Below, one piece after another: positions 2,997-50,991 of a stretch of 50,991 nucleotides of DNA. The notes beneath the pieces were generated by a model. The model was not told the origin of the DNA and ran no database searches. It saw only the letters and a list, made by a program, of their open reading frames with translations. A program made the translations under genes and the position numbers. The first letter of the stretch is position 1. Each line of letters starts with the position of its first letter. Location of the stretch: NCBI GenBank assembly GCA_003284445.1, contig QBVH01000008.1, forward strand, positions 1 to 50,991, given 5' to 3'. The DNA comes from Prochlorococcus sp. AG-311-D23. Lineage in GTDB: Bacteria; Cyanobacteriota; Cyanobacteriia; PCC-6307; Cyanobiaceae.

Positions 2997-4376
2997 ATGT
3001 CTTTAGAAAATTTCGTACTTAATCAATTACAAGATCTAGTTCTATCTGGCAAAACAAGAAAAGAGAAATGGAGAAGGGCTCAGCTTAACTCTTTATCAAA
3101 TTTATTAGAAAATCATCAGCAAGAAATCTTAAATGCTTTAAGCCAAGACTTAGGCAAGCCAGCGACAGAAGCGTTCTTCGAGATTATTGCTGTCAAACAA
3201 GAAATAAAACTGGCGCAGAAAAATTTATCGAATTGGATGAAGACAAGGCAAATCAACGTACCTGTCTCTCTTAAACCAGCTCAAGCGCTGGTCCAGCCAG
3301 ATCCATTGGGCTGCATTTTGATAATTGGTCCATGGAATTATCCTTTTTCTCTTACTCTTCAACCACTAGTAGGAGCATTAGCCGCTGGGAACACTGCTGT
3401 CTTAAAGCCATCTGAACATGCTCCTAACGTATCAAATCTGATAAAAAAGCTCATAGAACAATATTTCCCCCCAGAGGTCGCGCAAGTTGTTGAAGGAGAT
3501 GGAAACATTGCTGCTGATTTAATGACTCGACAATTTGATCACGTTTTTTTCACTGGTGGAGAAAATATAGGAAAAAAAGTAATGGAAGCCGCTTCAAAAA
3601 ATCTCACTCCAGTCACTTTAGAACTTGGAGGCAAAAGCCCAGCTGTTGTTATAGATGGTGCAAATCTAGAAGTAACGGCAAAGAGAGTTATATGGGGGAA
3701 AAGTCTAAACGCTGGGCAAACATGCATTGCGCCGGATCATTTACTTGTTGAGCATAAACTTTTTGATTCATTAATTTCTAATTTAATAAATTCGATTAAT
3801 GATTTTTACGGAAAGGCGCCTTTAGATTCAAAACATCTGGGGAGCCTTATCAATGAAAAACAATTTAATAGACTTAATAATTTACTAAATCAGGCTAAAA
3901 AGAATAACCAGATCATCTATGGAGGAGATAGCAATGAAAAAGAGAAAAGAATTAGCCCTACTCTGATCAAAATCGAGAATCGAAATGATCCTCTTATGAA
4001 GGAAGAACTTTTTGGCCCATTGCTACCTATTTTGAGTATTAAAAATCTCGATCAAGCCATCTCAGATTTCAAGGTATTACCTAAACCCCTTGCTTTATAT
4101 CTATTTGGAGGAGGTGAGAGGGAACAAGCGAAAGTACTATCAATGACCTCTTCAGGAGGTGTTTGTTTTAATGATGTTGTTTTACAGGCAGGGATACCTG
4201 AACTGCCATTTGGAGGTGTCGGAACAAGCGGCATGGGAAAATACCACGGTAAAGCAGGTTTTGATAATTTTACTCATTACAAATCAGTCCTAAAAAGACC
4301 TTTTTGGCTAGATCTAAACTTCAGATACCCTCCATACAAATTAGATTTGTCTTTACTTAATAAATTAATAGGTTAA
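2997..4376 (+). CDS. NAD(P)-dependent aldehyde dehydrogenase (fatty-aldehyde type)
   Basis: A full-length 459-aa class-3-like aldehyde dehydrogenase that oxidises aldehydes to carboxylic acids. The catalytic cysteine is Cys243 in NAGQTCIAPDH, and the general-base glutamate is Glu209 in TLELGGKSP. The N-terminal 'GPWNYPFSLTLQPLVGALAAGN' stretch and the 'ILIIGPWNYP' cofactor-binding motif are intact. The C-terminal hydrophobic end resembles membrane-associated fatty aldehyde dehydrogenases. Cyanobacterial homologs (for example Synechocystis slr0091) oxidise fatty and apocarotenoid aldehydes, so a role in lipid-aldehyde detoxification is likely. It is followed 45 nt later by the LysM gene. Confidence 0.88.
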   Translation: MSLENFVLNQLQDLVLSGKTRKEKWRRAQLNSLSNLLENHQQEILNALSQDLGKPATEAFFEIIAVKQEIKLAQKNLSNWMKTRQINVPVSLKPAQALVQPDPLGCILIIGPWNYPFSLTLQPLVGALAAGNTAVLKPSEHAPNVSNLIKKLIEQYFPPEVAQVVEGDGNIAADLMTRQFDHVFFTGGENIGKKVMEAASKNLTPVTLELGGKSPAVVIDGANLEVTAKRVIWGKSLNAGQTCIAPDHLLVEHKLFDSLISNLINSINDFYGKAPLDSKHLGSLINEKQFNRLNNLLNQAKKNNQIIYGGDSNEKEKRISPTLIKIENRNDPLMKEELFGPLLPILSIKNLDQAISDFKVLPKPLALYLFGGGEREQAKVLSMTSSGGVCFNDVVLQAGIPELPFGGVGTSGMGKYHGKAGFDNFTHYKSVLKRPFWLDLNFRYPPYKLDLSLLNKLIG

Positions 4377-47901: not shown

Positions 47902-48819
47902 GATTTTTTTAATATTTCTGGAGCACAATCAGTTGCCTACGATTTCAAAAAAGCAAGATTAGGAATTATTGGCGGAAGCGGACTATATAAGATAGAAAAT
48001 CTTAAAAACACAGTCGAGTTAAGCTTAGACACTCCCTATGGGAAACCATCCAATAAATTACTGATAGGCAATCTATTTGGAATAGAGATTGTTTTTCTTG
48101 CTCGCCACGGAGAGAACCATACTTTAAATCCAAGCGAAATTCCATATAAAGCAAATATCTGGGCTATGCGCTCATTAAATGTTAGATGGTTAATATCTGC
48201 ATCAGCGGTGGGATCGTTAAAAGAAAATATCAAACCTTGCGACATTGTAATTCCTGATCAATTTATTGATCGTACTCATCAAAGGCCATTGACTTTTTTC
48301 AACAATGGGGTTGTAGCGCACATAAGTATGGCAAGTCCTTTTTGCGAAAATCTTTCTCAAATACTTTCGCAAGAAATAGAAAGACTTTTAACAAAAGACA
48401 AAAAAATGCATATTGGAGGGACCTATCTTGCCATGGAAGGACCAGCCTTTTCAACAAGAGCAGAGTCAAACTTATATAGAGAATGGGGATGCTCAATAAT
48501 AGGAATGACAAACCATACTGAAGCCAGATTGGCAAAAGAAGCCGAAATCGCCTATTCGAGCCTATCAATGGTTACTGATTATGATTGTTGGAATCAAAAT
48601 TGCGAAAATGTATCTGTAGAAATGGTCATTGAAAATCTTCAGGAAAATGCAAATTTTGCAAAATCAATAATTTCTGCTGTTGCTAAACAAGTCTCAGAAT
48701 TAAAGCCCTCAAGCTCTTTTCACAATGCATTAAAAAATGCCTTAGTCACTCCAGAAGAGCATGTACCAGAAAGAACTAAAAGCAAGATCAAATTATTTAC
48801 AGATAAATATTGGCTTTAA
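47887..48819 (+). CDS. mtnP: S-methyl-5'-thioadenosine phosphorylase
   Basis: 310 aa from ATG 47887. RLGIIGGSGLYKIENL, then FLARHGENHTLNPSEIPYKAN, GGTYLAMEGPAFSTRAES and IGMTNHTEARLAKEAEI are the family blocks. It splits MTA (a by-product of SAM-dependent polyamine synthesis) to adenine and methylthioribose-1-phosphate. The 26 residues before RLGIIGG are not conserved, but no other start codon is usable in that stretch. Its 5' end overlaps the divergent SelD start by at least 15 nt. Confidence 0.9.
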   Translation: MITEHDFFNISGAQSVAYDFKKARLGIIGGSGLYKIENLKNTVELSLDTPYGKPSNKLLIGNLFGIEIVFLARHGENHTLNPSEIPYKANIWAMRSLNVRWLISASAVGSLKENIKPCDIVIPDQFIDRTHQRPLTFFNNGVVAHISMASPFCENLSQILSQEIERLLTKDKKMHIGGTYLAMEGPAFSTRAESNLYREWGCSIIGMTNHTEARLAKEAEIAYSSLSMVTDYDCWNQNCENVSVEMVIENLQENANFAKSIISAVAKQVSELKPSSSFHNALKNALVTPEEHVPERTKSKIKLFTDKYWL

Positions 48820-48823
48820 AAAA

Positions 48824-48862
48824 AAAAACCAACCAATATATAAAATGTCGGTTGGTTTTTAT
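48824..48862. terminator. bidirectional terminator between mtnP and psbJ
   Basis: AAAAACCAACC (48824-48834) and GGTTGGTTTTT (48850-48860) form an 11-bp stem around a 15-nt loop, with A and T runs on the two sides. It lies after mtnP (plus) and after psbJ (minus), so it can serve both. Confidence 0.82.
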
Positions 48863-48897
48863 TTTATTTCAATTAAATAGTATTGATCTAGTTGAAA

Positions 48898-49095
48898 CTA
48901 ACCAGCGTTGCCAACACCAGTGTATGAACCGTAAAAGAAAATACCCAGAACAAAAATTACAGCTGTTCCACCTGCAGTAGCGACTAACCATAGAGGAAGA
49001 GCTCCTTCTGTCCACCGTCTTTCCCAGGAGATTGCAGGTCTACCATCCGGCAGACGATCTCCTACTCGTCCATCTGGACCTTTTAATTTGCTCAT
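48898..49095 (-). CDS. psbJ: photosystem II protein J
   Basis: 65 aa. Polar N-terminal extension [20 protein letters not shown] precedes the PsbJ helix ([21 protein letters not shown]) and the [10 protein letters not shown] end. The extension is the form seen in marine picocyanobacteria. PsbJ is needed for electron flow on the PSII acceptor side. Last gene of this minus-strand PSII run, 11 nt after psbL. Confidence 0.95.
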
Positions 49096-49106
49096 GATAA
49101 AGAGAT

Positions 49107-49226
49107 TTAGTTAAAGAAGTAACTGGAAAAAAGAATTCCCATTACAAAAACAAGTAAGAGTCCAAGATAAAGACTTGTCCGGTTTAACTCAACCGGAACT
49201 TTATTTGGATTTGGATTGACTTGCAT
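49107..49226 (-). CDS. psbL: photosystem II protein L
   Basis: 39 residues: [20 protein letters not shown] followed by one membrane helix ([19 protein letters not shown]). The length and 'NRTSLY.GLL' are diagnostic for PsbL, needed for the PSII QA site and dimerisation. It lies only 29 nt downstream of psbE, leaving no room for psbF between them. No Shine-Dalgarno sequence is evident. Confidence 0.95.
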
Positions 49227-49255
49227 GGATAAAAAAGCAATCAGATGAAATTTGG

Positions 49256-49504
49256 TTATTTCAGACGAGTGTCAAGTTCAGCCTTGGAATCAAAGCGCTG
49301 AACAACAACAGGAGCTTTGCTTTCTCCAGCCTGAAAATACGTATCTGGTCTAGGAGTTCCAAAAGCGTCATAGGCAAGCCCAGAAGACACAAATAAGAAT
49401 CCTGCCACGAAGATCGCAGGTAGTGCCACTGCATGGATAATCCAATAGCGGACACTAGTAATGATCTCAAAAAACGGGCGTTCCCCGGTAGAGCCGGCAG
49501 CCAT
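49256..49504 (-). CDS. psbE: cytochrome b559 alpha subunit
   Basis: 82 aa, complete. [20 protein letters not shown], with the heme-ligand His in [16 protein letters not shown], then [13 protein letters not shown]...YF and a soluble tail ending in DTRLK. The heme is normally shared with PsbF, whose gene is absent here. First PSII subunit of the run after ycf48 (107-nt gap). Confidence 0.96.
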
Positions 49505-49611
49505 AGCCTCACTTAATCAGCTCAGTGATCTTATCAAGCGAAACCATAAGAAACGATCTCTGTTGCAAGGTGGTTACACAGAGTCATGGAAATCGTTAAA
49601 AATTTATAATT

Positions 49612-50628
49612 TCAACCCTGCCACCGCAATAAATTGCCCCTTTCACCGAATACAAATCCCTTAGGAGTGTCACTATTTAAATCGTCCAGAAAAAGAATTC
49701 TGATGAAATTTGTTGGAACAGATTCACCAACAGGGTCTTTTTCCCAAGTTTTTCCATCATCATTACTCACTAATAAAGTTCCATTTCCTCCAGCGGCCCA
49801 AATGGACTTAGATGGATCCCAAACAAGATCTTGATAGTTGTACCCGTTTACTATTGGGATTATGGGCTTTGACCAGGAATCTAAATCGTCAGAATCTGAA
49901 TTAAATCTGATTTCAGCTCCTCTAGAAAGCATCCATAAATCACCATCTGGCTGTTCACCAACACTTTGAAGTCTCTTACTACTTGCTCTTTGATGAGGGC
50001 TCCATATCTCCTCTCCTGGTCTTAGGACTGAGAAAAAGTTACCAAGGCTACTAACACTTATATATCCACCGTTATCTGTACGCCTTAATTCTCTGATACC
50101 ACCAGAGCCAGAAGTATCAATAACAATTGCTTCCCAATTGGTGCCAGCATCAGTAGTTTTATAAATTGCTCCAGCAGTAGTAGCTAACTCAGCAGAATCA
50201 GTATCAATTGTTGTTATCAAATAGGGATCTCCAGGCAACTTGTTTCCCAAATCGAGACGAGTCCAATTTTTCCCTCCATCAGTGGTATGAAGAATCAATC
50301 CTGGTTGACCTGCAATCCAACCTTCTTGGCCTTTAAAATCAACGCTTATTAAACGAAAATTACCTTCGCTTGGGATATCTAGATTCCTTTCTTTCCAGGT
50401 TATGCCTCCATCATTTGTCTCCAAAATCAATCTGTTAGTACCAACTAAGAATCCATTCTTGTCATCAACAAAGTCAATATCTAATGGATTTGCCTCAGTA
50501 TCTAGATCAACTGGTGACCAAGGGCTTGATGCGCCGAGGGAAGCATTGCTAACAGTACAACCAGTAAGAGCTACTCCAACTATCAAGGCAAGGGTCAAAT
50601 TAATGACATTTGAAAACAGACGTTTCAT
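49612..50628 (-). CDS. ycf48: photosystem II assembly factor Ycf48 (HCF136)
   Basis: 338 aa. Signal peptide with lipobox: LTLALIVGVALTGCTVSNAS, so it is a lumenal lipoprotein. The body is a seven-bladed beta-propeller with repeated asp-box-like motifs (TNDGGITWKERNL, TTDGGKNWTRLDL, TTDAGTNWEAIVI, SNDDGKTWEKDPV). It assists D1 insertion and PSII assembly and repair. The start codon overlaps the rubA stop by 4 nt (50625-50628), so rubA-ycf48 are translationally coupled. Confidence 0.93.
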   Translation of the reverse strand: MKRLFSNVINLTLALIVGVALTGCTVSNASLGASSPWSPVDLDTEANPLDIDFVDDKNGFLVGTNRLILETNDGGITWKERNLDIPSEGNFRLISVDFKGQEGWIAGQPGLILHTTDGGKNWTRLDLGNKLPGDPYLITTIDTDSAELATTAGAIYKTTDAGTNWEAIVIDTSGSGGIRELRRTDNGGYISVSSLGNFFSVLRPGEEIWSPHQRASSKRLQSVGEQPDGDLWMLSRGAEIRFNSDSDDLDSWSKPIIPIVNGYNYQDLVWDPSKSIWAAGGNGTLLVSNDDGKTWEKDPVGESVPTNFIRILFLDDLNSDTPKGFVFGERGNLLRWQG

Positions 50629-50991
50629 TTCAAAGAATAAAGAGAGAGAAAACAGGCAGCGGCTAAAGCCAAGCTTCCAAAAATAAGAACGTTTTTCTGG
50701 CCTGAAGGAAGTTTATTGAATCCAAAGCCATAAGTAAGGTTTTCTTCAAATCCACTCGGCTTTGATTTAGGGCCAATATCCATGTATCCACCAAATCCTA
50801 CTCGACAGACAGGACATCTAAACTTGTCTCTATCTATCTCTAGGAATGGTGTCCCTGGTTCAATATTTAGTTTTTTTATACCCTCATCAGGATCAAAAAT
50901 AAAACCACAGCTCATACATTCGAAGCGGTTTGCTTTTGGATCAAATTCCTCGGTTGAGTTTTTTGGTTCAAATGAAATAACTTGATTTTTT
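50625..50991 (-). CDS. rubA: rubredoxin RubA (5' end outside the window)
   Basis: The frame runs to the window edge. The internal ATG at 50915 is not the start: the residues before it (DPKANRFEC) supply the first iron-ligand Cys of FECMSCGFIFDPDEG. The second ligand pair is CPVCRVGFGG, and the Pro/Gly-rich linker leads to a C-terminal membrane helix (NVLIFGSLALAAACFLSLYS). This membrane-anchored rubredoxin is needed for assembly of PSII and PSI intermediates. About 20 N-terminal residues are visible; the rest lies beyond 50991. Confidence 0.93.
   Translation of the reverse strand, partial: KNQVISFEPKNSTEEFDPKANRFECMSCGFIFDPDEGIKKLNIEPGTPFLEIDRDKFRCPVCRVGFGGYMDIGPKSKPSGFEENLTYGFGFNKLPSGQKNVLIFGSLALAAACFLSLYSLK

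Follow-up and report, generated by a model that had tools for sequence, protein, structure and literature searches.

Cytochrome b559 is found in every photosystem II studied, and the role of its haem has stayed under debate for decades, since the complex is usually destroyed when a haem histidine is mutated away. In the 50,991-nucleotide stretch of DNA from Prochlorococcus sp. AG-311-D23 analysed here (the window), the gene for the beta subunit, psbF, is missing from its usual site between psbE and psbL. The locus thus raises the question of whether psbF has moved, has been deleted or was lost in assembly, the three options left by the original prediction, and of what stands in its place.

The psbE-psbL junction of the window

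The psbE gene, encoding the cytochrome b559 alpha subunit, is an ORF at 49256..49504 on the minus strand (PF00283, 57.9 bits; PF00284, 64.3 bits) that keeps its haem histidine (VRYWIIHAV). On the same strand follow psbL (49107..49226), an ORF homologous in all compared loci, and psbJ (48898..49095), assigned by ORF and locus comparison. On the other side of psbE are the photosystem II assembly factor gene ycf48 (49612..50628, minus strand), an ORF that adjoins psbE in other clades too, and the thylakoid rubredoxin gene rubA (50625..50990, minus strand), an ORF open at the window edge that encodes rubredoxin CxxC pairs and a C-terminal membrane helix. The gene order rubA-ycf48-psbE-psbL-psbJ is that of the canonical cyanobacterial psbEFLJ operon, except that psbF is missing here. 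As originally predicted, the ORF coordinates leave 29 nt at the usual psbF site (49227..49255, minus strand), and no PsbF-like ORF occurs in positions 48000-50991 of the window, in agreement with the claim that no PsbF-like sequence lies elsewhere in it. The profile search of the full genome that had been proposed along with these claims pointed the same way: PF00283 (Cytochrom_B559) matched psbE only, and no psbF, in the whole 1.47-Mb assembly. This assembly consists of 65 contigs and is 76% complete, and the absence of psbF from the genus rests on complete relatives.

The short spacer is fixed in a Prochlorococcus clade

The comparison with other Prochlorococcus loci, also proposed at the outset, gave a psbE-psbL spacer of 27-30 nt in 30 of 30 loci from the window's genus, which we take to be the low-light I group of Prochlorococcus. 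Complete chromosomes are included among these loci, and an independent collection of Prochlorococcus single cells added 20 contigs with a spacer in the same range. In other picocyanobacteria, the spacer is 151-179 nt long and has psbF inside it in 57/59 measurable loci, the two exceptions being Prochlorococcus AG-409-J19, with 2 nt, and AG-435-K18, with 33 nt. When the junction was probed with 732 bases spanning it, almost every genome of the genus gave a match over the full length; several of these genomes are chromosomes of 1.8-2.0 Mb in a single contig. Given the difference between the 30 same-genus loci and the 57 others, the short spacer is fixed in the clade and is neither a chance nor an assembly event. 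The fragmented, incomplete state of the window's own assembly would fit a deletion of psbF by single-cell amplification or assembly, but every one of the 30 loci from the genus has the same junction, as do several chromosomes assembled into one contig, which reduces the chance of this to almost nothing for the window, and for the genus such an artefact is ruled out.

A tree built from RubA, Ycf48, PsbE, PsbL, PsbJ and a neighbouring phosphorylase groups the window's genus with AG-435-K18 and a complete genome of genus g35 (G101), with a support of 0.99; their sister is high-light Prochlorococcus. Since psbF is missing in all three members of this group, one loss is enough for all of them. AG-409-J19 (L058) is placed apart from the window's clade. 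A further genome, G302 (L278), is placed with the high-light group and has a psbE-psbL spacer of 109 nt that is AT-rich, non-coding and without psbF. Because both fall outside the window's clade, psbF has been lost at least twice more, in the G302 lineage and in that of AG-409-J19, where the loss is independent of the window's clade.

Canonical psbF is lost from the genus

Searches of the 17 same-genus genomes that are at least 90% complete with PF00283 (E up to 10) and TIGR01333 returned only psbE and a second gene, referred to below as the long form. In complete same-genus genomes PF00283 gives psbE and one further significant frame (36-38 bits), and TIGR01333 gives that frame only. Scanning the genus with a nucleotide pattern of the [R/S]W..H type, which describes PsbF near its haem histidine, gave no more than chance-level matches. 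The searches themselves work, because they recovered canonical psbF in seven control genomes (G065, G081, G071, G187, G069, G181 and G208), and PF00283 recovers both psbE and psbF in control picocyanobacteria. The canonical, histidine-bearing psbF has really been lost from the genus. An overlooked psbF elsewhere in these genomes, strongly diverged yet with its histidine in place, might be suspected, as the gene is very short and profile searches for short genes can fail. We regard this as very improbable: neither profile nor the motif pattern found such a gene in the 17 genomes, with all controls positive, and PsbF is otherwise extremely conserved.

The remaining cytochrome b559 domain has asparagine at the haem position

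The long form is a separate protein of about 97 aa and is the only other cytochrome b559 domain in the window's genus. It matches the NCBIfam family NF002717, "cytochrome b559 subunit beta, long form", at 173.4 bits (cut-off 153; residues 3-97 of 97), TIGR01333 at 64.0 bits (cut-off 61.15) and PF00283 at 36.8 bits (cut-off 30), placing its PsbF-homologous transmembrane segment above the family cut-offs. The second half of the protein is PsbF, where the canonical RWLAVH reads RTLAVN, and there is no histidine anywhere in the protein. Across all loci compared, the haem position holds asparagine in 47/47 distinct long forms and histidine in 48/48 distinct canonical PsbF sequences, and the haem histidine of PsbE is unchanged in all same-genus copies. 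The long form therefore has neither the axial haem-ligating histidine of canonical PsbF nor its location between psbE and psbL; in the same-genus genome G032, for instance, the two loci are far apart (331 kb against 1,297 kb). A less altered long form in genus g56 (G293) reads RWLAIN, indicating that the histidine was lost while the remainder was still canonical. The dN/dS of the long form is ∼0.056 over 20 same-genus copies (psbE, ∼0.015), a value that points to a working gene under strong purifying selection.

Membership of the NF002717/NF002720 family means that a long form in Prochlorococcus was already known to annotators. From its title the family would seem to hold normal beta subunits, and the missing haem histidine, the PsbY origin described below and the absence of psbF and psbY from the clade are unstated there. 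We did not find these three features in the papers searched, and an open-literature search that excluded most subscription papers returned none on missing psbF or psbY in Prochlorococcus. The meaning of the long form thus appears not to have been described in the literature searched.

The first half of the long form is homologous to PsbY

The N-terminal 33 residues of the long form align end to end with PsbY (hhalign E 3.5e-8, probability 95). The hhalign score of 36.4 compares with a maximum of 15.9 in 100 full column shuffles and of 23.6 in 100 shuffles restricted to the membrane segment, and with 7.5 for reversed PsbY, 9.5 for PsbL and 13.3 for PsbJ. The long form misses the curated cut-off of PF06298 (PsbY), with a best score of 17.5 bits against 24; the sub-threshold PF06298 matches seen in several genomes fall exactly at the start of the long form. 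The long form is thus a PsbY-PsbF fusion. Directly after it in high-light loci (L171:1299-1485 and others) is a 61-aa ORF, a tandem partial copy that resembles only the PsbY-like half (MDIRYLIVGAPFIIAFFYTLYWLRKWGAF).

A fused chain of these two subunits is also present in the photosystem II of Acaryochloris marina (PDB 7YMI/7YMM, chain F, 99 aa), with PsbF at 11-47 and a PsbY-like segment at 62-81; the 7YMI entry shows this complex together with its Pcb antennas (PMC12661325). The order in Acaryochloris is reversed, with PsbF first, and the haem histidine is present (RWLAVHTLG), whereas the Prochlorococcus fusion has PsbY first and asparagine at this position. Chain F of 7YMI/7YMM was deposited as Photosystem II protein Y although its first half is PsbF, a name that easily hides the fusion.

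The interpretation given in the original prediction is partly supported. Deletion stands, as a true loss of the canonical, histidine-bearing gene from the genus; assembly fault falls, given the same junction in complete single-contig relatives. Simple relocation of canonical psbF is ruled out as well, for what is left is a fused paralogue whose haem position holds asparagine instead of histidine. It is a different, older paralogue that is also found in sister clades beside normal psbF.

psbY is absent along with psbF

No psbY gene scored above the cut-off in any of the 41 genomes of the genus (0/17 among those at least 90% complete), in G101 or in G302; G302 is thus another lineage with no psbF, no psbY and the long form kept. 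The nine genomes with canonical psbF that were compared (the seven controls, G111 and G146) all contain psbY, and G065, G081, G071, G187, G181, G208, G111 and G146 carry canonical psbF, the long form and psbY together. Order-wide, psbY is present in 226/260 good genomes, and the window's genus supplies 17 of the 34 without it. Some genomes with psbF, G179 among them, likewise gave no psbY, so the absence of psbY is not exclusive to psbF loss; the association between the two is strong, and the absence of psbY alone is not diagnostic. The long form occurs alongside canonical psbF in many high-light genomes, in LLII/III and in a few other genomes, and many complete high-light genomes have no long form. 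The long form was not found in AG-409-J19 or AG-435-K18, which carries no weight because both genomes are partial.

Genomic neighbourhood of the long form

The long form is flanked by one pair of uncharacterised membrane-protein genes that the window's genus, g35 and high-light genomes share (L120:2678-3109 and 3742-4215 in low-light I; L171:256-669 and 2021-2386 in high-light), and in the window's genus and g35 a flavodoxin gene is nearby. The two flanking genes had no match in Pfam, NCBIfam or PDB, and their products are likely partners of the long form. At loci of g27 (L216-L219), g43 (L215) and g56 (L220), the long form is instead beside a gene for a lumenal-type pentapeptide-repeat protein. 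The high-light genome G211 has two complete long-form clusters (L224 and L225) about 360 kb apart. A phage-borne copy was considered and rejected, as phage records gave no match and the sole match to a viral contig covered 12 residues. The draft genome of the window contains no long form, and the 6-kb neighbourhood of the gene gives no match there at all. Since this whole neighbourhood is missing, the absence is an assembly gap, and from its relatives we infer that the organism of the window has the long form.

The neighbourhood bears on a different account of the clade, in which the fusion works outside the core of photosystem II, in some other membrane complex together with the products of its conserved neighbours, and the clade's photosystem II contains PsbE without a beta subunit, perhaps as a PsbE homodimer ligating the haem. 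Consistent with this are the position of the fusion beside conserved uncharacterised membrane-protein genes and away from psbE, its presence in sister clades that also have normal psbF and psbY, and the retention of the PsbE histidine in all same-genus copies. We nevertheless consider it unlikely, as PsbF is required for photosystem II accumulation where this has been tested (PMC9214863) and as the joint loss of psbF and psbY exactly where the two-domain fusion is kept would be hard to explain if the fusion were unrelated to them.

Discussion

The most likely reading of the locus is a clade-wide loss of psbF and its displacement by a PsbY-PsbF fusion without the haem ligand, and neither a plain relocation nor an assembly loss. 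More fully, psbF and psbY were both lost in the clade and probably displaced by the fusion, which would leave the haem with at most the PsbE histidine or absent. In the ancestor of the low-light I group and its nearest relatives, canonical psbF would have dropped out of the rubA-ycf48-psbEFLJ cluster, psbY would have dropped out too, and one protein encoded elsewhere, made up of a PsbY-like helix, a cytoplasmic linker and a PsbF helix, would have displaced both. PsbY lies against cytochrome b559 (PMC4823308), and for this reason a fusion could position both helices. The N-terminus of the PsbY-like part would be lumenal and that of the PsbF helix cytoplasmic, as in all PsbF. The PsbY-first order would need one cytoplasmic linker, as seen, and the Acaryochloris order one lumenal linker, so that both may fit the same arrangement. 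The Acaryochloris chain offers a precedent that such a fused chain assembles.

Because the PsbF part has asparagine and the protein has no histidine, the haem would have at most one protein histidine ligand, that of PsbE, or there would be no haem. It might be five-coordinate or have water or asparagine as sixth ligand; alternatively, the two subunits may form a haem-free structural dimer. A haem-altered or haem-free photosystem II seems possible in principle, because Thermosynechococcus strains with PsbA3 reached wild-type levels of active photosystem II with an apo-cytochrome b559, the haem being dispensable for assembly there (PMC9214863, PMC4709441). Such strains resemble the state proposed here, since their photosystem II is active although one haem histidine of cytochrome b559 is missing, but they were engineered and the changed histidine is that of the alpha subunit, whereas the Prochlorococcus case is natural and affects the beta subunit. 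Nearly all substitutions of either haem histidine in Synechocystis, glutamine included, abolished photoautotrophy (PMC4709441), and these results count against the reading proposed here. In Arabidopsis, PsbY is needed for the high-potential form of cytochrome b559 (PMC9214863). High-light and LLII/III genomes have the fusion in addition to canonical psbF and psbY, which indicates that the fusion has, or formerly had, some other or conditional role. Iron saving, prompted by the flavodoxin neighbour, is a thought and nothing more.

The fusion suggests that a single fused chain may take the place of PsbF and PsbY, normally separate subunits of photosystem II, and reference annotation masks this chain behind a normal-sounding family name. 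It is somewhat likely that an abundant, culturable lineage of oxygenic phototrophs has a cytochrome b559 beta subunit without a haem ligand, and that the bis-histidine haem of cytochrome b559 is unneeded for photosystem II in nature. With a clade, cultured strains included, that has evolved without the second haem histidine, the role of the haem would become testable.
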